NCBI GenBank assembly: GCA_022360105.1
Contig: JAKSDL010000536.1
Location: forward strand, 1 to 9,425
DNA: 9,425 nucleotides
Direction of reading: 5' to 3'
From: Pseudomonadota bacterium
GTDB taxonomy: Bacteria > SAR324 > XYD2-FULL-50-16 > JAHJRI01
Below, in pieces: positions 1-9,425 of the stretch. Position 1 is the first letter of the stretch, and the number at the start of each line of letters is the position of its first letter. The translations under genes and the position numbers were made by a program. A model generated the notes under the pieces. That model was not told where the DNA came from, made no database searches, and worked only from the letters and a program-made list of their open reading frames with translations.

Positions 1-110
1 AAAATGCAAGTTTGTTGGAGGTAAATTGCTTTGAGTATTGATATAACCTGTCGGCGGGGTCGTAGCCCCGCCCTACCATCTACCCGCAAATTCAATCAAA
101 ACGTCGCATT
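1..110 (+). repeat. Long direct repeat, copy 1 (may extend left of window)
   Basis: Bases 1-79 are identical to 260-338, and the next 31 bases (80-110) still match 339-369 at roughly two thirds of positions. The repeat contains an AT-rich inner part (1-50), a GC-rich palindrome (53-77) and a less conserved tail. Because identity starts at base 1, the true left edge may lie outside the window. No coding potential is apparent. It looks like part of a repeated non-coding element rather than a gene duplication. Confidence 0.9.
53..77 (+). repeat. REP-like palindromic element, type A, copy 1
   Basis: A 7-base GC arm (53-59, GGCGGGG) is followed by a 6-base loop (TCGTAG) and the perfect complementary arm (66-72, CCCCGCC), ending with CTACC. 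The same 25-mer is at 312-336 and 3056-3080. Size, GC richness and intergenic placement match REP-type (repetitive extragenic palindromic) sequences; no transposase is visible nearby. Confidence 0.85.
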
Positions 111-183
111 TAATTTGGTTGGTGGAGCCGTAGTTCCAATGTGTTTAGTTGAGGCATAATTCTAGTTATCTCTGGGAACGAAC

Positions 184-208
184 GGTAGGGCGGCCCTACG
201 TGGCCGCC
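184..208 (-). repeat. REP-like palindromic element, type B (inverted)
   Basis: Read on the minus strand, this 25-mer matches the type A element except at five positions. Four of these are two base pairs of the stem that have swapped G-C for C-G on both arms, so the hairpin is kept; the fifth change is in the loop. It lies 103 bases left of the type A copy at 312-336 in inverted orientation. The plus strand also contains the short palindrome GTAGGG-CGG-CCCTAC. Confidence 0.75.
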
Positions 209-259
209 GGGGGATTTGATTGGGAGAAGTAACAAGGAAGGAAAAGACGGATCTTCGAT

Positions 260-369
260 AAAATGCAAGTTTGTTGGAGGTAAATTGCTTTGAGTATTGA
301 TATAACCTGTCGGCGGGGTCGTAGCCCCGCCCTACCATTTGTCCGCAGACTCAATCAAATCTTTGCATT
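260..369 (+). repeat. Long direct repeat, copy 2
   Basis: This is the second copy of the repeat at 1-110: 79 identical bases (260-338), then a diverging tail. It lies just downstream of the modC stop and overlaps the right half of the paired REP unit. The identical stretch suggests a recent duplication or active homogenisation. Confidence 0.9.
312..336 (+). repeat. REP-like palindromic element, type A, copy 2
   Basis: Identical 25-mer to 53-77, with perfect 7-base GC arms around a 6-base loop. It lies about 75 bases past the modC stop, so in the leftward modABC transcript it would form a stable hairpin that could protect or end the mRNA. No T-run follows, so I do not call it a classical terminator. 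Confidence 0.85.
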
Positions 370-410
370 GACTTGAGTATGGTATATACGTTGGTGAAGC
401 AGGGTATTAA

Positions 411-1115
411 CTAACCAACCAAATCAAAAGAAGCAGCAGGCAAGGGCATTGTTCCGGCCTCATTGATCGATTTTTTCTTTACCCCAAGCTCATTTTCCAC
501 GATCAGAATATCATCGGTCAGTTGTCTGATCTCTTCCAGAGAATGGCTGACATAGATGATAGGTACAGACATGGTTTTTGAAATCTCTGAAATAAAGGGC
601 AAGAGCTCCTGTTTCATTTTTAAATCCAGTGATGCCAGGGGCTCATCCATTAATAGCAGATTTGGACTCATTAACAGTGCTCTGCCAATGGCCACACGTT
701 GCTTTTCTCCACCGGACAGCTTTCCCGGAAAGCGATGCAGCAGCTTTTCAATTCTCAGTAAATGGATCACTTCATCAAAGCAGATTTTTCTCCGGTCGTT
801 GCGGACCAGTTTTCTACCATAATTAAGGTTGGTTCTTACTGAAAAATGGGGAAAGAGTCGTCCTTCCTGAAATACGTAACCAAAGCGTCTTTTTTCAGAG
901 GGTATATCGATCTTGAGATAGGAATTATAGATCCACTCGCCGTTGAAAATAATCTTCCCGGAAGAAGGTTTGAGCAATCCGGCCAGCATGTTGATAATAC
1001 TTGTTTTACCTGATCCGGAAGGACCGTACAGTGCCAGAATGCCGTTTCCTTTGACTGAAAAATTCACCCGAATATCGTTCGCTGCTAACTTCTTATGCAA
1101 TGTGGCTTGTAACAT
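411..1115 (-). CDS. modC: Molybdate ABC transporter ATP-binding protein ModC (short form without TOBE domain)
   Basis: This is the ATPase that drives molybdate import through ModB on the inner face of the membrane. In 234 residues it shows a Walker A motif GPSGSGKTS (31-39), the Q-loop glutamine (Q83), the ABC signature LSGGEKQR (133-140), Walker B LLLMDEP (153-159) and the switch histidine (H191). It is last in the leftward modABC operon, three bases after the modB stop. Typical ModC proteins are about 350 residues and end in a TOBE/Mop-like oxyanion-binding domain. This one stops about 40 residues after the switch histidine, so that domain is absent. Motifs alone do not separate ModC from related sulfate or tungstate ATPases; the modA-modB context decides. 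The gene looks intact rather than frameshifted. Confidence 0.9.
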   Translation of the reverse strand: MLQATLHKKLAANDIRVNFSVKGNGILALYGPSGSGKTSIINMLAGLLKPSSGKIIFNGEWIYNSYLKIDIPSEKRRFGYVFQEGRLFPHFSVRTNLNYGRKLVRNDRRKICFDEVIHLLRIEKLLHRFPGKLSGGEKQRVAIGRALLMSPNLLLMDEPLASLDLKMKQELLPFISEISKTMSVPIIYVSHSLEEIRQLTDDILIVENELGVKKKSINEAGTMPLPAASFDLVG

Positions 1116-1118
1116 GGC

Positions 1119-1811
1119 TTAACCTTTTAATTTCGAGCGATATATTTTTGTGCTGTATTCGGAAACAAGCAGAGCCAGCATAGCTGTTGCTATTGAGATT
1201 AGACAAAGTCTCATGGCACCTGCTTCTCCCTCTGGTGTTTGAATCAGGTTATACAAAGTTAAGGGCAGTGTATTGGTTTGTCCGGGAATATTTGAAGCAA
1301 AGGTGATAGTTGCCCCAAACTCACTAATACTTCTGGCAAAAGCCATCATGGCACCGGATACAATACCCGGGATAATCAATGGTATTGTTACGGTAAAAAA
1401 CACCCTGAATGAGCCCGCCCCTAATGTCTTCGCTGCCGCTTCCAATCCCCTGTCCATACTTTCCAGGGAAATCCGAACTGCCCTGACCAGAAGCGGAAAC
1501 GCAATGATTCCGGAAGCCAGTGCAGCACCTTTCCAGTTAAAGGTCAGGGTGATTCCTAACCAGTTGTAAAGGATTTTTCCCAGAACGCCGTTTCTTCCCA
1601 GTAGCAACAGGAGTAAATAGCCAGTTACTACCGGGGGAATAACCAAAGGTAAATGAACCAGTCCGTTTAAAAGGGATTTTCCTGCAAACTCATATCGATT
1701 CAGTACCCAGGCCAGAAAAATTCCCAGGGGAAGGCTAAAACCAACTGACACCAGGGATACCTTCAAACTTAAAAACAATGCCTGTAATTCCAATGGAGTC
1801 AGCCAGTTCAT
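1119..1811 (-). CDS. modB: Molybdate ABC transporter permease ModB
   Basis: This is the inner-membrane channel subunit of the molybdate importer. The 230 residues are strongly hydrophobic, with about five or six membrane spans. They include the cytoplasmic EAA loop (about 123-145, LEAAAKTLGAGSFRVFF) that docks on the ATPase, with its conserved glycine at G131. The ISEFGATI segment near 162-170 is typical of ModB/CysT-type permeases. The length is normal for ModB. The start codon overlaps the modA stop (ATGA, 1808-1811) and there is no strong ribosome-binding site, so translation is probably coupled to modA. modC follows three bases after its stop. Molybdate rather than tungstate or sulfate is inferred from ModA and the nif context. 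Confidence 0.92.
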   Translation of the reverse strand: MNWLTPLELQALFLSLKVSLVSVGFSLPLGIFLAWVLNRYEFAGKSLLNGLVHLPLVIPPVVTGYLLLLLLGRNGVLGKILYNWLGITLTFNWKGAALASGIIAFPLLVRAVRISLESMDRGLEAAAKTLGAGSFRVFFTVTIPLIIPGIVSGAMMAFARSISEFGATITFASNIPGQTNTLPLTLYNLIQTPEGEAGAMRLCLISIATAMLALLVSEYSTKIYRSKLKG

Positions 1812-2590
1812 GGTAAGTTAGTGTCAAATCCGTGTTTTTTAAAGATGCCTTTTGCCCGGGTTGATTTTAAAAAAGACAGAAACTGTTTTGATTCCTTCCG
1901 TTCTTTTTTATTAACCAAAGCACAAAGATATACAATGGGCGGATGACTGGTCTTAGGAAAATACCCTACGATATTGACCTTTTGGGAGATAAAAGCATCT
2001 GTCTGATAAACGATTCCAAAAGGGACTTCGTGTCGTTCAACCAGCATTAATGCTGCGCGAACATCCTTAGTTCGCGCGATTTTGGAGACCAGTCCGGGCC
2101 ACATTCCGAGGTTTTGTAGCGATTTCTTTGCATACATTCCCACTGGTGTGTGATCAGGGTTGGCCATAGCCAGATATCCCTCTCCCAGCATTGCGTTCAA
2201 ATCAAGGGAAGCATCGATATCTGCATTGATCGGATTTTGCGACGACGAGATCAGAACCAGGGTATTGGTGAAGAGTATTTCTTTTGTTGAAGGTTTGATC
2301 AGATTCTTTTTCTCAAGATAATCCATCCACTTCAAATTGGCTGATATGTAGAGATCTGTCGGTGCACCTTGTTCGATTTGTCTGGCAAGTGTTGAGGATG
2401 CAGCAAATGAAGTCGTGACGCTGATTCCATGAATCTCTTCAAATTCAGCTGTGGCATCCAGCATGACGTTGGTTGTGGATGCAGCAGCAAAAACCAGCAG
2501 GCTGTTTTTTGCTGCTGCCAGTAAAACTCCTGATGTGGATAACAAGATTAAGGCAAGCAGTCCGGTTTTTAACATTGGTCGAATAATCAT
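1808..2590 (-). CDS. modA: Periplasmic molybdate-binding protein ModA
   Basis: This is the high-affinity periplasmic receptor that hands molybdate to ModBC. Its 260 residues start with a positively charged N-terminus and a hydrophobic core (about 8-27), a signal peptide with likely cleavage after the LLAAA stretch. ModA landmarks follow: VFAAASTTNVM (33-43, oxyanion-binding loop), GAPTDLYISAN (75-85) and a PVGMYAKKSL segment near the middle. It is the first gene of a leftward operon. The start at 2590 has an AAGGA ribosome-binding site six bases upstream; the internal ATG five codons later is less well placed. A possible sigma-54 promoter lies at 2626-2641. Molybdate feeds FeMo-cofactor synthesis, which fits the nif genes next door. 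Specificity for molybdate over tungstate cannot be read from the sequence. Confidence 0.92.
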   Translation of the reverse strand: MIIRPMLKTGLLALILLSTSGVLLAAAKNSLLVFAAASTTNVMLDATAEFEEIHGISVTTSFAASSTLARQIEQGAPTDLYISANLKWMDYLEKKNLIKPSTKEILFTNTLVLISSSQNPINADIDASLDLNAMLGEGYLAMANPDHTPVGMYAKKSLQNLGMWPGLVSKIARTKDVRAALMLVERHEVPFGIVYQTDAFISQKVNIVGYFPKTSHPPIVYLCALVNKKERKESKQFLSFLKSTRAKGIFKKHGFDTNLP

Positions 2591-2625
2591 GGTCTTTCCT
2601 TGTTCGAGTTTTTGTTACCCTAATC

Positions 2626-2641
2626 AGCAGATTGTGTACCA
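2626..2641 (-). promoter_or_regulatory. Candidate sigma-54 (-24/-12) promoter of modABC
   Basis: On the minus strand the sequence TGGTACACAATCTGCT matches the TGGCAC-N5-TTGCA consensus at 8 of 11 positions, with the essential GG and GC correctly spaced. Transcription would begin near 2615, about 25 bases ahead of the modA start. GG-N10-GC pairs arise by chance every few hundred bases, so this is suggestive only; the NifA-like site at 2760-2775 at a suitable distance supports it. Confidence 0.4.
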
Positions 2642-2759
2642 GTGTGATTTTTATGAGAGGGGATAAGGTATAACATCCCATCAACCGGAGTTTAATAGCG
2701 AGTATCCGGTTTGAAAGAGATAATTAATCAGACCAGGCCATGTCGGAGCCTGAACATTT

Positions 2760-2775
2760 TGTCGGATTCCCGACA
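2760..2775. promoter_or_regulatory. Candidate NifA upstream activator site inside a palindrome
   Basis: The sequence TGTCGGATTCCCGACA fits the NifA site pattern TGT-N10-ACA and lies within a longer inverted repeat (2759-2765 and 2770-2776, 7-base arms). It is about 150 bases upstream of the inferred modABC transcription start, a usual distance for an enhancer of sigma-54 promoters, and about 390 bases upstream of the inferred nifLA start. The GTCGG motif recurs nearby (2742, 2783), so it could instead belong to a local repeat or another regulator. Confidence 0.35.
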
Positions 2776-2879
2776 ATTTGTAGTCGGTGGGTCGTGAAAA
2801 TGAGAATGACAAAATTGCCATTGGTTTTAAGAGTTTGGGTGGTTTTGTCAAAATTGTCATAAAATCACCAGGGAGAATT

Positions 2880-2894
2880 CTCGAATGATTCGAG
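2880..2894. repeat. Short perfect palindrome
   Basis: CTCGAAT-G-ATTCGAG is a perfect inverted repeat with 7-base arms and a single central base. It stands just left of the interrupted type B REP element, between modA and nifL. It could be an operator or part of the repeat cluster; nothing decides between these. Confidence 0.5.
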
Positions 2895-2902
2895 TACAAA
2901 CC

Positions 2903-2950
2903 GGTAGGGCGATTCTTTGCTGCGAGTCTCGCAAATTCAGCGTGGCCGCC
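2903..2950 (-). repeat. REP-like element type B, with enlarged loop
   Basis: The outer parts (2903-2911 and 2941-2950) match the type B element at 184-208 exactly, but its central 6 bases are replaced by 29 bases (2912-2940). The inserted piece contains its own perfect palindrome, TGCGAG-T-CTCGCA (2921-2933). The element faces the type A copy at 3056-3080 in inverted orientation. Confidence 0.7.
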
Positions 2951-3055
2951 GGGGGATTGGTTAAAGGTAAGAGTCAATAATTTGCATGATGGGGTTTGTG
3001 GAAAAATGGGGATCTGAGCGCGGTATCTTTGAGTGAAGATGTGTTCTGGACTGTT

Positions 3056-3080
3056 GGCGGGGTCGTAGCCCCGCCCTACC
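3056..3080 (+). repeat. REP-like palindromic element, type A, copy 3
   Basis: Identical to the 25-mers at 53-77 and 312-336, with perfect 7-base GC arms around a 6-base loop. The base just before the shared GGCGG differs (T here, C in the other two copies), marking the left edge of the conserved core. Confidence 0.85.
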
Positions 3081-3134
3081 GTTAGATTCTCGAACCACAG
3101 CCTCGTACACTATACCACCTGCGGTTCAATCCAA

Positions 3135-3150
3135 CGGAATGTTTTCTGCA
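3135..3150 (+). promoter_or_regulatory. Candidate sigma-54 (-24/-12) promoter of nifLA
   Basis: CGGAATGTTTTCTGCA keeps the essential GG and GC at the right spacing and matches the -24/-12 consensus at 7 of 11 positions. The start of transcription would fall near 3161, about 44 bases ahead of the preferred nifL start. The nifLA operon of Klebsiella is transcribed from an NtrC-activated sigma-54 promoter. I see no clear NtrC site upstream here and no convincing sigma-70 promoter. Confidence 0.35.
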
Positions 3151-3195
3151 GAAGGTTTCCGATAATTTTATGTTCCGGCTTTTTAAATTATTATG

Positions 3196-3201
3196 AGGAG
3201 G
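3196..3201 (+). promoter_or_regulatory. Ribosome-binding site that selects the nifL start
   Basis: AGGAGG stands three bases before the ATG at 3205 (the match continues one base to AGGAGGT). The in-frame ATG at 3193 lies just before this motif and has only AT-rich sequence ahead of it. I therefore prefer 3205 as the start, though the short spacing leaves some doubt. Confidence 0.6.
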
Positions 3202-3204
3202 TCC

Positions 3205-4815
3205 ATGTCCACTTTCACCAGTCTGGAAAGTTTTAGTTCCACACGATTCGCTATTCGAGCCTGGGAGCCTGCAAACCCGGCAACTGATTTGCTGAAGGAG
3301 CAGATCCTGGATTTTCTGGATATTGTTGAAGCGCAAAACGGACAGTTGCTTGAGGTATGCAATGCGCAGAACAATGAGCAGAAACAACTGGAAATGGCGC
3401 TGTGCAATACTGAAGATGCCATCAGCATTGCTTCAGCGAATGGTCTTATCAGAATGGTCAACCCCTCATTTGAAAAACTGGTTGGGATTGCCGGTCCCAA
3501 GCTTATTGGTCAAAATCATGATATCTTCTGGTCTGCCGAGGTTTTGAACAAGGTTGATAATATGAAAACTGCCATTGGAAAAGGCTGTGATTGGCGGGGA
3601 GAACTCTCGCTTTGCAGCAATGACGGAAATAATTATGACGTTCAGGCGTCAGTCGTTCCGATTGTAAAACCAACGGGGGAGATATCCCATTTTGTCTATA
3701 CGCTTCATAACATTACAGAAAGAAAAAAGCTCGAAAATAACATACGGCGTCAATCGCAATTCCTGGAAAAAGTGATCAACCTGAATCCCAGTATGATCAT
3801 GATCCTGGATGAAAATGGGGAATGGATATTGGATAACCTGGCCGCCAAAACCTTGATCAGCGATTATGGAGAAGGAGCCAGGAACAAGATATCCAGCCAG
3901 ATATTACTTTTCATCAGGAGCCGTAAAAACAATACATCGCAAAAATTAAAGTTACAGTGGCCAAACGGTACGGAAAGAATATTTCTAATGAAACATGAAG
4001 AAATTCCCGCTAAATACCTGTTGCCGGAAAGCGACAAAAAAACAAGCTATCTGATCACCCTGTCTGACATTACAGCAAATGAAAAAACCAATCGTGAAAA
4101 CCTGGTCAGACAAAAGGCTCTGCTGGCCTCGCGAATCGAAAGAAACATGATTCAAGGCGAGTTCATTAACGGCTTTATTTATCACCTGCAAAAACCTCTT
4201 AATATTTCGAAAGCTGCCATTTCAAGGGTTCAAGCTGCGGTAAACAATAACCGTTTTGACAAGGTGGAACAGGCTGTATTGCTGATGCGAGAAGAACTGG
4301 AGTTTCTGGAAAAGGAGCTAAACAAGTTTCGCATCATTCCACAAACGCGACCCTCTTCAAATGAATGGACCGGATCATCCGAACTGGTCGATGCTATCAA
4401 GGTTCTCTATTTTAAACAATTTCAAGAGTCATTAATTGGAGTATCGGCCAGCGATATAGACAATGATTCATGCTTTCCCCTGCCGTACGAAATCATGCAG
4501 TTGATATTGAAAATACTGATAGATAATGCGTTTGAATCAATGTGCGAATCCGGCAAAGATGTCCGTGTGAAAGTTACGTTTTCCAAAGGTTCGGACTGCA
4601 TGCTTTTAACAGTTGAAGATAGTGGTCCTGGTATCGGTCAAAACGAAAGATACAAGATATTTGAACCTTTTTATACATCCAAACAAAATCATTCCGGACT
4701 TTCCCTGACCGTACTTCATCAATTGATAAACAGCATTCACGGTAATGTGGAGTTGTCCGGATCGATCATGGGTGGAGCCAAAATAACACTCTATTTTCCA
4801 GTGGAGACTGCATGA
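3205..4815 (+). CDS. nifL: NifL-like sensor protein, partner of NifA
   Basis: The product is probably a cytoplasmic flavoprotein-type sensor that restrains NifA when oxygen or fixed nitrogen is high. From the 3205 start it has 536 residues, like other NifL proteins. An N-terminal helical lead is followed by PAS1 (about 62-176), PAS2 (about 185-290), a helical H-like region (about 300-375) and a GHKL ATPase-type domain (about 390-536). The region YLITLSDIT...LNIS (about 282-335) closely resembles the matching part of Azotobacter NifL. The N box (IDNAFESM, 439-446), G1 box (EDSGPGI, 471-477) and F box (FEPFYTSK, 486-493) are present; the glycine-rich G2 box is degenerate. The position of the usual phospho-accepting histidine is tyrosine (Y326), with a histidine next to it. 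The stop overlaps the nifA start (ATGA). An orphan PAS histidine kinase is the alternative; context and H-region similarity favour NifL. Confidence 0.8.
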   Translation: MSTFTSLESFSSTRFAIRAWEPANPATDLLKEQILDFLDIVEAQNGQLLEVCNAQNNEQKQLEMALCNTEDAISIASANGLIRMVNPSFEKLVGIAGPKLIGQNHDIFWSAEVLNKVDNMKTAIGKGCDWRGELSLCSNDGNNYDVQASVVPIVKPTGEISHFVYTLHNITERKKLENNIRRQSQFLEKVINLNPSMIMILDENGEWILDNLAAKTLISDYGEGARNKISSQILLFIRSRKNNTSQKLKLQWPNGTERIFLMKHEEIPAKYLLPESDKKTSYLITLSDITANEKTNRENLVRQKALLASRIERNMIQGEFINGFIYHLQKPLNISKAAISRVQAAVNNNRFDKVEQAVLLMREELEFLEKELNKFRIIPQTRPSSNEWTGSSELVDAIKVLYFKQFQESLIGVSASDIDNDSCFPLPYEIMQLILKILIDNAFESMCESGKDVRVKVTFSKGSDCMLLTVEDSGPGIGQNERYKIFEPFYTSKQNHSGLSLTVLHQLINSIHGNVELSGSIMGGAKITLYFPVETA

Positions 4816-6347
4816 AGGATTTGAACGCTGCAGCCCTGAAAACTGTCTACAAAGTATCCCAGATTTTGGGACAGGACAGATCTCCCAGGGAAGCCCTGAT
4901 GGATATTTTAGAGGTCCTGGATGATATGCTAGATTATCATCATGGCATGATTAGTTTGTTGGATCCTGAAACCGGTGATCTATTGGTTGAGGCTGCTCTT
5001 GGAATCGAAAGGAAAAAGCTGGATGAAACACGTTACCGCAAAGGGGAAGGTATTATTGGATTGATTCTAAAAACCAGAAAATCCCTGGCAATCAAAGTGA
5101 TAGAGAACGATCCTCGTTTTTTACATCGGATTGATGTCTATGATCCAAGCTCTGCTTTTCTGGGAGTTCCCATTCTGATTCAGGATAGAATACTGGGTGT
5201 ACTGACAGTGACCCTGGAATCGTCTCAAAAATCCAGGTTGGATGACCATGAGAAAATACTGACTCTTTTTGCCAATTTGGCGGGCAGTCTGATTATCCGG
5301 CTGATGAAGGTTGAAAAAGAGAAAAAAGCCATTGTCGATGAAAAACATAGTTTGCAAAGAAAATTGAAGAGTAAGTATCGACCTTCCAATATGGTAGGAA
5401 TCAGCAAAGTTATGCAGGATGTGTTTGAAACTGTGAGTCAGGTGGCAAGATGGAATACGACCGTATTGATCCGAGGAGAATCGGGGACAGGGAAAGAGCT
5501 TATTACCAAGGCGATTCATTATGAAAGCATGCGCAGCAGCGGACCATTTATCAAATTAAACTGTGCAGCATTGCCGGATAATCTTTTGGAAAGCGAACTA
5601 TTTGGACATGAGAAAGGAGCATTTACCGGTGCTGTTAAACAGCGTCCTGGTCGATTTGAACTGGCAGATGGCGGCACCTTGTTTTTAGATGAGATAGGTG
5701 ATACGTCTCTTTCCTTTCAGGCCAAGCTACTCAGGGTGTTGCAGGAGAGTCAGTTTGAAAGACTGGGTGGGGATGAAGTCATTACAGTCGACGTGCGAAT
5801 TATAACCGCTACCAATGTGGATCTGGAACTGGCCGTTGCCGAAGGACGGTTTCGTGAGGATCTGTTTTACCGGTTAAACGTGATGCCGATCTATCTTCCT
5901 CCCTTAAGGGAACGCCGGGAAGATATCCCTTTGCTTGTTGACTTTTTCCTTGAGAATTTAAGCAAAGAGTGCGGGCATCCTCTTTCAACTGACGAGGAAT
6001 TTATGAGTATTGTCTCCCAATGTGCTTTACCTGGTAATGTGAGAGAGTTGGAGAACTGTGTGCATCGAGCGGCGGTAACAAGTCATGACTATGTGCTAAG
6101 AGGTGCCAATCTTCCCTGTACCAAAGGACGATGCTTTAATCACCTGATTACCAGGAAAAAAGAGTCTGCAAATACAATCAGCAATGACGACGATCTTATG
6201 ATGATCGAAAATGAGAGGGAGCGTGTGATTGCGGCCCTGGAACGTTCCGGATGGGTGCAGGCAAAAGCAGCCCGCCTGTTGAACCAGACACCGCGTCAGA
6301 TTGGTTACAGGATAAAAAAGCTTCATATTGAAATGAAATCGTATTAA
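4812..6347 (+). CDS. nifA: NifA, sigma-54-dependent activator of nif genes, with interdomain cysteine motif
   Basis: This protein binds enhancer sites and uses ATP to open sigma-54 promoters of nif genes. Its 511 residues comprise a GAF domain (about 20-165), a charged linker (about 166-190), a AAA+ domain (about 193-420) and a C-terminal helix-turn-helix. The AAA+ domain has Walker A GESGTGKE (222-229), the sigma-54 contact loop GAFTGA (269-274), Walker [11 protein letters not shown] (287-296) and [10 protein letters not shown] (347-356). The C-terminal segment [19 protein letters not shown] and the TPRQIGYRI recognition helix closely resemble Azotobacter NifA. Cysteines 404, 416, 436 and 441 form C-X11-C-X19-C-X4-C, the signature of oxygen-sensitive NifA proteins. 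The start overlaps the nifL stop, with GGAG seven bases upstream, so translation is coupled to nifL. The stop overlaps the convergent nifV stop. Confidence 0.95.
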
Positions 6348-7450
6348 TGTGGCGCCAGTATTCCCAAGATCTGCTCATCAGAGATGCCACCTTTTTGAAT
6401 CGCCGCGATTTTACGAATCTTCGGCACAGCCCAACGCATGGACTCGGAATCGGAGCAACATCTTAGCTCTTCAATTTTCTGCAGGACTGCTTTTGGGCCC
6501 GAATGTTTTCCAATGACGAATTTACGAATCCCTCCGACTAGCTTGGGGTTGTAGGGTTCATAAGTAACCGGATTTTTAGTCATTCCATCAATGTGAATTC
6601 CCGATTCGTGAGCAAAGATGTCATCACCAACAACGCTTTTCCCCCGGGAAATGGGTCGTCTGGCCGCTGCCGATACGGTCTTGGCCAGGGTTTTCATGAA
6701 TTCCGGCTTGACGCCTGCGTCTGTCCCCATGTTGACTCTTAACGCCATGGCTATTTCCTCAAGCGGTGTGTTTCCAGCCCTTTCGCCCAGTCCCATGACC
6801 GTTGTGTCTATCGCTTCGGCACCGGCTTTAACTGCTGCCAGGGCGTTGGCTGTGGCCATACCCAGGTCGTTGTGACCATGAAACTCCAAATCGAGATCCA
6901 GTACATTTAACCTGTCAATCAAATCCAGAACGGAAAACGGATCAGCGATACCCACGGTATCACATAATCTCAACCGACAAGCCCCTGCTTCGTGCGCAAG
7001 TAAAGCATAGTCCAGCAAGAAATGTTTATCTGCACGAGTTGCGTCCTCTGCGCCGATTGAAAATGTGACTTTCTCTTTTTGAATGATTGAGCTGATTGCT
7101 GCCAATTTCTCCAGGACCCACTGCTTGGTTTTACCCAGCTTATCCTCAATCATCAGATCAGACACGGGAAGGGAGATATGTATAATATCCGCCCCTGTCT
7201 CCAGAGAACATTCAATATCTTTCATTACAGCCCTGTTCCAGGTGATGATGTCCGCGTTTAGATTGAGTTTTAGGATTTCTTTGATAGCTTCCTGCTCACA
7301 TTTTCCGTTAACCGGGGTTCCGGCTTCAATTGCATGGACTCCGGCTTTATCCAACAGTAAGGCTATTTTGATTTTTTCTTTTAGAGAAAATAAAACGCCA
7401 GGAGTCTGTTCTCCGTCTCTCAGGGTCGTATCTATGATTGTTGGTTTCAT
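6344..7450 (-). CDS. nifV: Homocitrate synthase NifV
   Basis: The enzyme condenses acetyl-CoA with 2-oxoglutarate to give homocitrate, the organic ligand of the FeMo-cofactor. In 368 residues it shows the DRE-TIM family signature DTTLRDGEQ (7-15), the metal-binding HGHND (191-195), GLGERAGN (220-227), HESGIH (281-286) and FVIGKHSG (311-318). The length suits NifV and is too short for 2-isopropylmalate synthase, which carries an extra regulatory domain; lysine-pathway homocitrate synthase is the other relative. The nif setting supports NifV. Its stop shares bases with the nifA stop on the opposite strand. There is no clear Shine-Dalgarno sequence before the ATG and no convincing promoter in the 210 bases between it and nifB, so it is probably expressed as a nifB-nifV transcript. 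Confidence 0.93.
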   Translation of the reverse strand: MKPTIIDTTLRDGEQTPGVLFSLKEKIKIALLLDKAGVHAIEAGTPVNGKCEQEAIKEILKLNLNADIITWNRAVMKDIECSLETGADIIHISLPVSDLMIEDKLGKTKQWVLEKLAAISSIIQKEKVTFSIGAEDATRADKHFLLDYALLAHEAGACRLRLCDTVGIADPFSVLDLIDRLNVLDLDLEFHGHNDLGMATANALAAVKAGAEAIDTTVMGLGERAGNTPLEEIAMALRVNMGTDAGVKPEFMKTLAKTVSAAARRPISRGKSVVGDDIFAHESGIHIDGMTKNPVTYEPYNPKLVGGIRKFVIGKHSGPKAVLQKIEELRCCSDSESMRWAVPKIRKIAAIQKGGISDEQILGILAPH

Positions 7451-7627
7451 GGTGTGTTTTATTTAATTTGGCAATTGGTTATAACAGTCAGTTCTAGCCA
7501 TTTATTCGTGCTCGTGAACGCGCGCGTGATTGTATTTGTGGGAGAAATTGCAGATTTATATTGATATATCACCTCGTAAATTCTACTGAGTGTATCAAGC
7601 TGTTAAAACGCGTCGCAATGCAAATTA

Positions 7628-7651
7628 GTGGATCCGTTTCGCTTGATCCAC
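7628..7651 (-). terminator. Hairpin just after nifB (weak terminator or mRNA-stabilising stem)
   Basis: On the minus strand, nine bases after the nifB stop, GTGGATC and GATCCAC form a perfect 7-base stem around a 10-base loop. No run of T follows, so it is unlikely to stop all transcription and may allow read-through to nifV or protect the nifB mRNA end. The rest of the 7451-7660 spacer is non-coding; it contains a TGATATATCA palindrome (7562-7571) and no promoter I can support. Confidence 0.4.
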
Positions 7652-7660
7652 CAAAGTTTG

Positions 7661-9028
7661 TTAACTCAATGCTCCCCTGACTAACTTTTCATTTTCCAAA
7701 TTCTTGGTATCCACTCTATTATTTGCAAGGCGATGCGCGGCCGTCTTAACAGCCCCATCAACAGGCAATCCGGAAAGATCAGCAATTGGAATGATCTTGT
7801 TGCGCTCAAGCTCCTGATAAAGCCGATAACCGATTTTGGTGCTCAACACGGCATCACATCCTTTAAGGCCTTCAATCAATTCCTCGTTGGTCAGGTTTCT
7901 GTTAAACCGTCTGATGTTCAGTAACACCGCCCGATCGTCGATGACTTCATAAATATGTGTTTCTTTTGCCTGTTTGATTGGCAAATCAACAATGCCTGAA
8001 CCGGTTGTGCAAACAGCAATTTTGCCTTGGCTCTTGGCAGTGCTGTCAGCATTCTCCTCCAGCAGGGATTTCATTTCCTGGTGGTGCATAAGATTTAAGG
8101 AAAGATTGCGCCAGTCGCTTCTTGCCTTAAATCCGAAATCCCTGCTTATCTGTTTCTCTCCTTTCAACCGATCGTCGTCGTTCAGCTTGCCTGCTGCATC
8201 TGCCCTGCACTGCCTGCAATGAGCCATCTGCTTCATGTTGCTGCATGATTTTCTAACCTCTTCCAGCTGGTTCGGCGTTGGTTCAACCTGTCCATCTTGA
8301 GAGAAAACAGTCCCGTGTTCGGGTTTGGAGATAAGCGGCAAAATGTTGTGAATTGCTGCACCCATCAGCTTCAGGCGTTTGGAAATACTTTTCAGTTCTT
8401 TGTCATTTATTCCGGGAATCAGAAGTGAGTTAATTTTAACGATAATCCCGGCGTTGATCAGCAGCTTGATGCCTCGTTGCTGAAGGTCCAGAAATTCTGC
8501 CATTGAATCTGGATTGCCGACCCTGGTGTTTTCTAATCGAACCCATTGGTAGATTTTAGCTGCTGTTTCCGGATTGAACGTGTTCACAGTGACGGTCACA
8601 TGATCGATGCCCAATTCGACAATTTGATTAATGTTTTCAAGTAGCTTTAATCCGTTGGTGGACAGACATAGCTTTAGATCCGGTAATTTTTCCTTAATCA
8701 AACGAAAGGTTTCAAATGTTTTTTCCGGATTGGCGAGGGGATCTCCCGGTCCTGCAATACCTATCACTGCTAATTCTTTATGCTCACGGGCATATGAAAG
8801 TGCTGTCTGAAGAGCTTCTTCAGGTTTCAGTAATTTGCTGGTAACGCCCGGTCTGCTCTCATTTGTGCAATCGTATTTACGATTACAATAGTTGCATTGA
8901 ATATTACATTTTGCTGCCACCGGGAGGTGAATCCTGGAGAAATATTGCTGAGCTTTCTCTGAAAAGCAAGGGTGATTGTCCAACGAACTTTTATCGAAAT
9001 GTCTACTGTAAGTTGAATCGCAAACCAT
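7661..9028 (-). CDS. nifB: NifB, radical SAM FeMo-cofactor precursor synthase with NifX-like C-terminal domain
   Basis: NifB builds NifB-co, the 8Fe-9S-carbide core of nitrogenase cofactors, by S-adenosylmethionine radical chemistry. The 455 residues carry the conserved NHPCFSEKA (18-26), the radical SAM cluster motif CNIQCNYC (C41, C45, C48), NRKYDCTNESRPGV just after, GIAGPGDPLAN (90-100), LSTNG (122-126) and HCRQCRADA (270-278). A NifX/NafY-like domain begins near residue 335 (GKIAVCTTGSG) and runs to about 432. This two-domain form is typical of proteobacterial NifB. The start is well defined: GGAGG lies six bases upstream. A -24/-12 promoter and NifA sites lie further upstream, in the spacer shared with divergent draT. 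nifV follows 210 bases downstream on the same strand. Confidence 0.97.
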   Translation of the reverse strand: MVCDSTYSRHFDKSSLDNHPCFSEKAQQYFSRIHLPVAAKCNIQCNYCNRKYDCTNESRPGVTSKLLKPEEALQTALSYAREHKELAVIGIAGPGDPLANPEKTFETFRLIKEKLPDLKLCLSTNGLKLLENINQIVELGIDHVTVTVNTFNPETAAKIYQWVRLENTRVGNPDSMAEFLDLQQRGIKLLINAGIIVKINSLLIPGINDKELKSISKRLKLMGAAIHNILPLISKPEHGTVFSQDGQVEPTPNQLEEVRKSCSNMKQMAHCRQCRADAAGKLNDDDRLKGEKQISRDFGFKARSDWRNLSLNLMHHQEMKSLLEENADSTAKSQGKIAVCTTGSGIVDLPIKQAKETHIYEVIDDRAVLLNIRRFNRNLTNEELIEGLKGCDAVLSTKIGYRLYQELERNKIIPIADLSGLPVDGAVKTAAHRLANNRVDTKNLENEKLVRGALS

Positions 9029-9087
9029 TTTGTTCCTCCAGGCTTCAAGTTTGGTATATTCCGTTAATCTATTAGGTAGACCTATTC

Positions 9088-9103
9088 AGCAAAGGAAGGA
9101 CCA
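9088..9103 (-). promoter_or_regulatory. Sigma-54 (-24/-12) promoter of nifB
   Basis: The minus strand reads TGGTCCTTCCTTTGCT, which keeps TGG, TTGC and the exact spacing of the TGGCAC-N5-TTGCA consensus (8 of 11 positions). The inferred transcription start is near 9077, about 49 bases before the nifB ATG. Two NifA-type sites lie 100-120 bases upstream of that point, the expected arrangement for a NifA-activated promoter. Confidence 0.75.
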
Positions 9104-9169
9104 GGATGAAATTTGATGATAACATTTTGTTTTTACTGCATTTTTTATTTTTAGAATTTGATGAACCTG

Positions 9170-9185
9170 TGTAACATATCCTACA
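9170..9185. promoter_or_regulatory. NifA upstream activator site 1
   Basis: TGTAACATATCCTACA fits TGT-N10-ACA exactly. Its centre is about 100 bases upstream of the inferred nifB transcription start. An AT-rich stretch (9120-9160) lies between it and the promoter and could bend, with or without IHF. Confidence 0.7.
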
Positions 9186-9188
9186 CAT

Positions 9189-9204
9189 TGTTAGCTTTGC
9201 GACA
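9189..9204. promoter_or_regulatory. NifA upstream activator site 2, touching the draT start codon
   Basis: TGTTAGCTTTGCGACA is a second exact TGT-N10-ACA, centred 19 bases from the first. Its last base is the A of the draT ATG. If bound, it would strengthen nifB activation and could block transcription into draT from an upstream promoter. Confidence 0.55.
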
Positions 9205-9425
9205 TGAACCAGAATCACATCACCAGTCTTAACCTTGTTGGGTGTCCGACATCCTATTTCGCTTCACCGGCTTTTAATCAGAATCCATTACCCATTTCAA
9301 TCAATGGTGTCAGGCAGATGAATCATCAGCTATTCAGTACCATGGATAAATATGATGAAAAGGATGCACCGTTGCTGTTTATGGAGCACATGCGGGTGAT
9401 GTTTGAACTGGATGTGGATGTGGAA
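9204..9425 (+). CDS. draT: DraT, dinitrogenase reductase ADP-ribosyltransferase (N-terminal part, cut by window end)
   Basis: DraT uses NAD+ to ADP-ribosylate an arginine of the nitrogenase Fe protein (NifH), switching nitrogenase off after ammonium or energy shift. Only 74 codons lie in the window and the frame is open to the end; the whole family is about 250-290 residues. The visible part matches the DraT N-terminus as I recall it: LNLVGCPTSYFASPAFNQNP (9-28), SINGVRQMN (32-40) and an acidic helix with FMEHMRVMFELD (59-70). The catalytic region is not visible. An in-frame stop at 9192-9194 rules out a more upstream start. There is no clear Shine-Dalgarno sequence and I cannot support a promoter. 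It is divergent from nifB across 175 bases. The activating partner draG would be expected downstream, outside the window. Confidence 0.8.
   Translation, partial: MNQNHITSLNLVGCPTSYFASPAFNQNPLPISINGVRQMNHQLFSTMDKYDEKDAPLLFMEHMRVMFELDVDVE

Follow-up and report, generated by a model that had tools for sequence, protein, structure and literature searches.

The activator NifA has been described in two forms, one controlled by NifL in gammaproteobacteria and one in alpha- and betaproteobacteria that senses oxygen or redox state itself through cysteines (PMC10590331). In the NifA of Herbaspirillum seropedicae the motif cysteines are C414, C426, C446 and C451 (PMC9866876). NifL has been placed in gamma-, alpha-, beta- and zetaproteobacteria (PMC9866876, PMC6490700), the second paper adding an unclassified NifL group and reporting an alphaproteobacterial one; neither "cystein" nor "Cys" occurs in its main text. 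Our literature search, with most subscription papers and all preprints outside its scope, found no on-topic work on NifL in Nitrospinota or SAR324 nitrogen fixation.

Here we analyse a stretch of 9,425 nucleotides (the window), positions 1 to 9,425 of contig JAKSDL010000536.1 (assembly GCA_022360105.1) from a bacterium of the SAR324 lineage, in which a nifL-like gene directly precedes a nifA whose product carries the cysteine motif C-X11-C-X19-C-X4-C. The pair resembles the NifL-NifA system of Azotobacter vinelandii (PDB 9qq6; TIGR02938/TIGR01817) in that the two genes overlap or adjoin on the same strand and encode a PAS1-PAS2-H-GHKL partner, with its best PDB match in both sequence and fold there, and a GAF-AAA+-HTH activator. 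Unlike that system it has the four NifA cysteines and a partner protein that stays under the NifL cut-off and lacks most of the flavin adenine dinucleotide (FAD) pocket of canonical NifL. With the cysteine-type NifAs of rhizobia, Azospirillum and Herbaspirillum (PMC9866876, PMC10590331) it shares homologous cysteine positions with identical spacing, but no NifL partner was found for any of the 12 motif NifAs in the Pseudomonadota sample, and the window NifA branches with the NifL-type. The module is a form outside the textbook split of NifA types.

The NifA of the window carries a conserved cysteine motif

The window NifA exceeds the curated TIGR01817 cut-off of 528.85 bits and has the GAF, AAA+ and HTH domains. 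An earlier note on this DNA had read the cysteine codons at 6021, 6057, 6117 and 6132 as an exact C-X11-C-X19-C-X4-C and had the nifA start overlapping the stop of the upstream gene; the sequence bears out both, with an overlap of four bases, and the C-X4-C end reads CTKGRC. Among the best 120 of 7997 NifA homologues, the exact motif was found in all 28 top-ranked proteins (P0018-P0045, the first being the window's own NifA) and in none of the other 92. The four cysteines are present in 28/28 while some columns between them fall to 7-13/28, and in eight DNAs of the clade (the window, L001-L005, L121 and L123) the codons vary between TGT and TGC yet stay cysteine. Judged from these alignments, conservation of the motif is beyond chance. 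The nearest named homologues come from a metagenome-assembled genome (MAG) labelled "bacterium", then from Nitrospinae and "Lambdaproteobacteria" (SAR324) MAGs.

A PADLOC run on NifA returned RtcR/CARF AAA+ relatives only. Glu356 of A. vinelandii NifA was set aside as a possible sign of control by NifL; if the numbering of 9qq6_C is that of the protein, the window NifA also has Glu at this position.

Motif and NifL-like partner occur together in one clade

An alignment of NifL-like proteins, run against genome contigs, matched 17 loci, 12 of them weakly (mostly other PAS kinases) and five true relatives, from Nitrospinota (L001, L003), "Deltaproteobacteria" (L002), SAR324 (L004) and Lambdaproteobacteria (L005). 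An exact-motif NifA directly follows the NifL-like gene in 5/5 of these. Within the phyla Nitrospinota and SAR324 (24 genomes for the phylum of G001, 52 for that of G005), three plus three NifAs are over the cut-off, and all six in these 76 genomes combine the motif with a NifL-like gene directly upstream; in one of them, G007, the contig end cuts the partner gene and leaves only its last 101 amino acids. With the "Deltaproteobacteria" MAG G002 (locus L002), both features are present in 7/7 over-cut-off NifA loci. Few candidates were scored per genome (4 in the class sample and 3 in the phylum sample of G006, up to 22 or 30 in other searches), and all finds are lower bounds.

The 30 sub-cut-off matches of the two phyla (22 + 8) contain the motif only in L027, from G018. 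In this genome (L122, 3977-5485) a sub-cut-off motif NifA falls inside the window's NifA clade and has no NifL-like gene; here the cysteines outlast NifL. The PAS kinase downstream of it was considered as a NifL and rejected, having the kinase His box and grouping with kinases.

In Pseudomonadota the picture is the reverse. The class of G006, an Iodobacter MAG, was sampled through 369 genomes and gave 20 NifL over the cut-off, with an adjacent motif-less NifA in 20/20. Its phylum, sampled through 398 genomes, gave 41 NifAs, 12 with and 29 without the motif. None of the 12 has an adjacent NifL (0/12), nor was an over-cut-off NifL found among the scored candidates of their genomes; of the 29, seven have an adjacent NifL and 22 have neither feature. 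This makes 0/27 motifs in NifL-paired NifAs of Pseudomonadota. Motif and NifL are mutually exclusive in the Pseudomonadota samples and occur together in the window's clade. The survey of NifL-adjacent nifA genes proposed by the earlier note finds the combination abnormal outside the clade. Within the clade it is not confined to one organism and recurs in all seven over-cut-off loci sampled. As the clade is a single lineage, these seven loci stand for one event in evolution.

The 22 NifAs with neither feature (L082, L089, L095-L099, L101-L104, L106-L108, L111-L115, L118-L120) form, where placed in the tree, two clades with good support within the NifL-type branch. The phylum of G002 (198 genomes) had matches in 109, 79 of them over the cut-off; of the 30 loci checked, 29 had neither feature and one, G002 itself, had both. 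Kinases beside NifA in L131 and L143 of this phylum were rejected as NifL, with 76 and 109 bits on the canonical-NifL profile vs 320-686 for NifL of the Pseudomonadota sample. No NifL was found in the class of G473 (0/337 genomes at E 1e-60), a scan that gave no match anywhere at all.

The upstream protein groups with NifL as a divergent sister

The product of the upstream gene has the PAS1-PAS2-H-GHKL architecture over its full length, with HATPase_c and PAS domains. Its best PDB sequence match is 9qq6_A, which is NifL in its complex with NifA from A. vinelandii (E 4.3e-21), and Foldseek ranks the same chain first (E 1.9e-30, TMq 0.62), the second-ranked match having 0.25 and no other among the 50 listed exceeding 0.35. 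In a tree of the H/GHKL region, built with a limited set of 17 kinases and showing a long NifL-like stem (2.28), 19 NifL-like and 21 canonical NifL proteins stand apart from the kinases at 100/97; the NifL-like group (100/100) and canonical NifL (88/94) are sisters. The NifL-like set leaves out P0001, which is the protein of the window itself, and the 360-amino-acid fragment P0007. The phospho-acceptor His of the H box is found in 17/17 kinases, 7/21 canonical NifL and 0/19 NifL-like proteins, 16 of which have Tyr. GHKL residues N445, D476, G478, G480, F490, P492 and G502 are invariant in the 18 aligned sequences.

Tree and fold both place the upstream protein with NifL, as a divergent sister. 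The designation as NifL-like made in the earlier note stands in this sense, with the reservation that the protein lies below the curated NifL cut-off; its relatives score 128-169 bits on TIGR02938 and canonical NifL 396-890. The TIGR02938 score was discarded as evidence that a protein is a NifL, since 199 bits are reached by PAS kinases of genomes in which no NifL passes the cut-off. Pro-X-Asn in the H box was likewise discarded as a NifL signature: it is found in 18/19 NifL-like and 20/21 canonical proteins and also in 4/17 kinases. Repeating the search with a NifL-like profile at E 1e-60 returned 15 proteins, 14 already found and one Brevibacillus PAS protein.

PAS1 of the NifL-like protein lacks most NifL-type FAD contacts

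FAD is contacted in PAS1 of NifL by Ser39, Thr41, Ala45, Glu70, Arg80, Tyr83, Trp87, Leu90, Asn102, Tyr110 and His133 (PMC12540587, PMC8063818), and alanine substitutions at these cavity residues, Glu70 excepted, are reported to abolish oxygen sensing by NifL (PMC12540587). Of these 11 contacts the window protein keeps 2, the 19 NifL-like rows 1-4 and 21 canonical rows 6-11. The differences are sharpest at Asn102 (0/19 vs 27/27, the window having Leu140 there, 3610-3612), Tyr83 (0/19 vs 27/27), Trp87 (1/19 vs 27/27) and His133 (0/19 vs 25/27), where the 27 canonical sequences are the 21 rows plus six more, some cut at the N-terminus. Ser39 (14/19) and Thr41 (13/19) are mostly retained in NifL-like proteins, and Arg80 (4/21) and Leu90 (10/21) vary in canonical NifL too. 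Because the neighbouring PAS-fold positions are conserved in the NifL-like set (Asn51 and Phe54 19/19, Gly67 and Gly98 18/19, Trp96 17/19), Asn102, six residues past Trp96, is aligned safely, more so than positions 80-90. The PAS fold is shared with the flavin sensors Aer and MmoS, and His occupies the Glu70 position in 10/19 NifL-like proteins. Unlike Aer and MmoS, whose flavin-contacting Asn (N85 and N164, PMC9668731) probably corresponds to NifL Asn102, all 19 lack Asn at that position.

Divergence rates agree with this loss. The PAS1/GHKL divergence ratio is 0.99 in NifL-like proteins (bootstrap 5-95% 0.87-1.06; 12 taxa) and 0.71 in canonical NifL (0.67-0.75; 19 taxa), so that on these rates the extra PAS1 constraint of canonical NifL is gone. 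Relative to NifA, GHKL diverges similarly in the two groups (canonical 1.71, NifL-like 1.86), PAS2 slightly more slowly in NifL-like proteins (1.69 vs 1.95) and H somewhat faster (2.32 vs 2.01), the overall ratio being 1.99 vs 1.80 in canonical pairs. L064 and L079 were dropped from this test, and 5/12 NifL-like/NifA pairs were matched solely through an equal length of the longest contig. The alignments and rates show the loss of the NifL-type FAD pocket; a ligand-free PAS1 would be a further step.

A cysteine just before PAS1, Cys71 in the numbering of the 540-amino-acid open reading frame (ORF; 3403-3405), is present in 16/19 NifL-like proteins and 0/21 canonical NifL, 17 of which have Glu.

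Position of the window NifA in the NifA tree

A tree of 63 NifA rows was computed with an IQ-TREE mixture model after removal of the motif columns; some rows labelled as having both features are protein entries (P) whose upstream gene was not seen. The window falls in a clade of 17 rows (100/100), sister to the 29-row clade of NifL-type NifAs, 19 NifL-paired and 10 with neither feature (union 100/99). The motif-bearing, NifL-less NifAs of Pseudomonadota (8 rows, 99/95) branch below, the node of all three groups having 94/85. A single clade of all 25 motif NifAs is rejected (approximately unbiased test, p 0.001), and the motif requires two changes on this tree. Since the cysteines are identically spaced and lie at homologous positions, a single gain with a loss in the NifL-type line explains this more simply. 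Read alongside the NifL tree, this placement suggests that the partnership of NifL with NifA is older than the loss of the cysteines in the NifL-type lineage. Alternatively, a nifLA pair may have been transferred between phyla, or the motif may have been gained twice.

Locus layout

Features of the window are listed in the table. The nifL-like ORF opens at an ATG at 3193 (540 amino acids), but the most likely start is 3205, because of a GAGGAGG ribosome site and a resulting length equal to that of the closest relatives. The two genes are likely translationally coupled through their overlap, which is also four bases long in L004, L005 and L123, L003 having a 3-base gap. No convincing site was found before nifL-like in a sigma-54 promoter scan.

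Features of the window (positions 1 to 9,425)
Feature	Position	Strand	Evidence or remark
modCBA	411-2590	minus	
nifL-like gene, 536 aa	3205-4815	+	TIGR02938, HATPase_c and PAS; best PDB match 9qq6_A
PAS1 region of NifL-like, with altered FAD contacts	3391-3732	+	2/11 published contacts kept
PAS2 region of NifL-like, LDN..AKTL signature	3733-4092	+	Asp-Asn in 19/19 NifL-like, 16/21 canonical
H domain of NifL-like, Tyr replacing phospho-acceptor His	4093-4377	+	alignment
GHKL nucleotide-binding domain of NifL-like	4378-4806	+	conserved boxes intact
ATGA 4-base overlap, nifL-like stop/nifA start	4812-4815	+	nifA ATG 4812; nifL-like TGA 4813-4815
nifA, 511 aa, GAF-AAA+(GAFTGA)-Fis HTH	4812-6347	+	TIGR01817 609.9 bits, Pfam domains
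C-X11-C-X19-C-X4-C redox motif	6021-6134	+	Cys codons 6021-6023, 6057-6059, 6117-6119, 6132-6134
nifV	6344-7450	minus	
nifB	7661-9028	minus	
draT start	9204-9425 (window end)		PF07357

In L005 the order nifL-like, nifA, nifV, nifB, draT is as in the window, and ORFs beside that cluster, judged by their openings, are presumably nifHDK. With 439.5 bits, the nifV product falls slightly short of the cut-off of the NifV model, 462.9. The last feature is the start of a DraT-like dinitrogenase reductase ADP-ribosyltransferase, a relative of which also follows nifB in L005; with draT beside nifLA, nitrogenase may also be controlled after translation, as a third layer.

Five NifA-type sites TGT-N10-ACA form two clusters (2741-2775 and 9170-9251), two sites lying upstream of modA and three around the nifB/draT start region; the count is weak by itself, with 2.33 expected and 17/200 shuffles reaching five. 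An intergenic stretch of 115 bases (1-115) is repeated 259 bases on at 260-374 with 91% identity, and its 33-base core, with the palindrome GGCGGGGTCGTAGCCCCGCC, recurs upstream of nifL-like at 3051-3083 as a dispersed repeat.

Discussion

We regard a division of labour within this divergent NifL-NifA module of a Nitrospinota/SAR324-related clade as the probable reading, with fair rather than high confidence. NifA would sense redox through its own cysteines, presumably by binding a metal. The co-translated NifL-like protein would be an anti-activator that binds NifA via its H/GHKL part and traps it as in the 2:2 NifL-NifA complex (PMC12998174). Because PAS1 has lost the FAD pocket, it would report nitrogen and energy status, through PII protein and ADP, rather than flavin redox state.

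The earlier note had left two possibilities, that the organism combines both oxygen-control layers or that one is vestigial. The first is now the less likely, with most FAD contacts and the extra PAS1 constraint gone, and the second fits better in a refined form, in which NifL appears to have lost its flavin sensor but has kept its GHKL boxes, and NifA its cysteines.

Three observations weigh against our reading. The NifL-like protein reaches 163 bits on TIGR02938 (over positions 14-494 of 494), short of the curated 242; its PAS1 model lies close to LOV and NifL PAS folds, which speaks against a simple absence of flavin; and His at position 70 or Gln at 133 in some NifL-like proteins recalls other flavin PAS domains. 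It is unlikely, though not negligibly so, that both partners are active redox sensors, NifA through its cysteines and the NifL-like protein by way of Cys71, PAS2, or a PAS1 with an unusual flavin or a different ligand. The confidently predicted PAS1 fold (pLDDT ~90 over residues 90-180), its nearness to LOV, MmoS and NifL PAS structures, and the Cys71 of 16/19 NifL-like proteins would suit such a sensor, but the Asn by which NifL and Aer hold the flavin ring (PMC8063818, PMC9668731) is absent in 19/19 and the PAS1 constraint has gone.

Rather improbable is a NifL-like protein that is being lost and has no control over NifA left, with the cysteines doing everything. A low NifL score, the long stem, a somewhat faster H domain and the case of G018 would be expected of a decaying partner; against this, the ORF is intact and overlaps or adjoins nifA in the window and six whole-gene loci (L001-L005, L123), it diverges relative to NifA nearly as in canonical pairs (1.99 vs 1.80), and its GHKL boxes are invariant. 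We give very little credit to the converse, cysteines that are a relic beside a NifL-like protein regulating alone: NifL-type NifA functions without them and lacks them in 27/27 canonical pairs, but here they persist in 28/28 homologues at exact spacing among variable neighbours, with only TGT/TGC changes, and the partner has lost its FAD pocket. Equally hard to credit is an ordinary PAS histidine kinase as chance neighbour of nifA, for although generic PAS kinases equal or exceed its TIGR02938 score, the phospho-acceptor His is missing in 19/19, the tree separates it from kinases, NifL leads kinases in the full-length fold match, and adjacency to nifA is conserved across two phyla.

Under the division of labour that we favour, the window pair would represent an early stage, with NifL already beside NifA and before the cysteine loss of the NifL-type lineage. 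A tentative extension, to which we give slightly less than even weight, is that the oxygen sensor moved between partners. The ancestral state would have been a cysteine NifA with a NifL that reported nitrogen or energy; in the canonical line the flavin pocket and the loss of the cysteines would have gone together, and the window's clade would have retained the earlier condition, a cysteine NifA with a NifL that carries no flavin.

Such a clade, with both features present and the NifL flavin site lost, would separate the anti-activator role of NifL from its oxygen role, and would give a concrete sequence of steps, open to testing, by which the control of nitrogen fixation by oxygen passed from one regulator to another. 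In practical terms, the NifL-like protein of this clade may be a naturally occurring NifL that reacts to nitrogen without reacting to oxygen, which would be useful for rewiring nif control.

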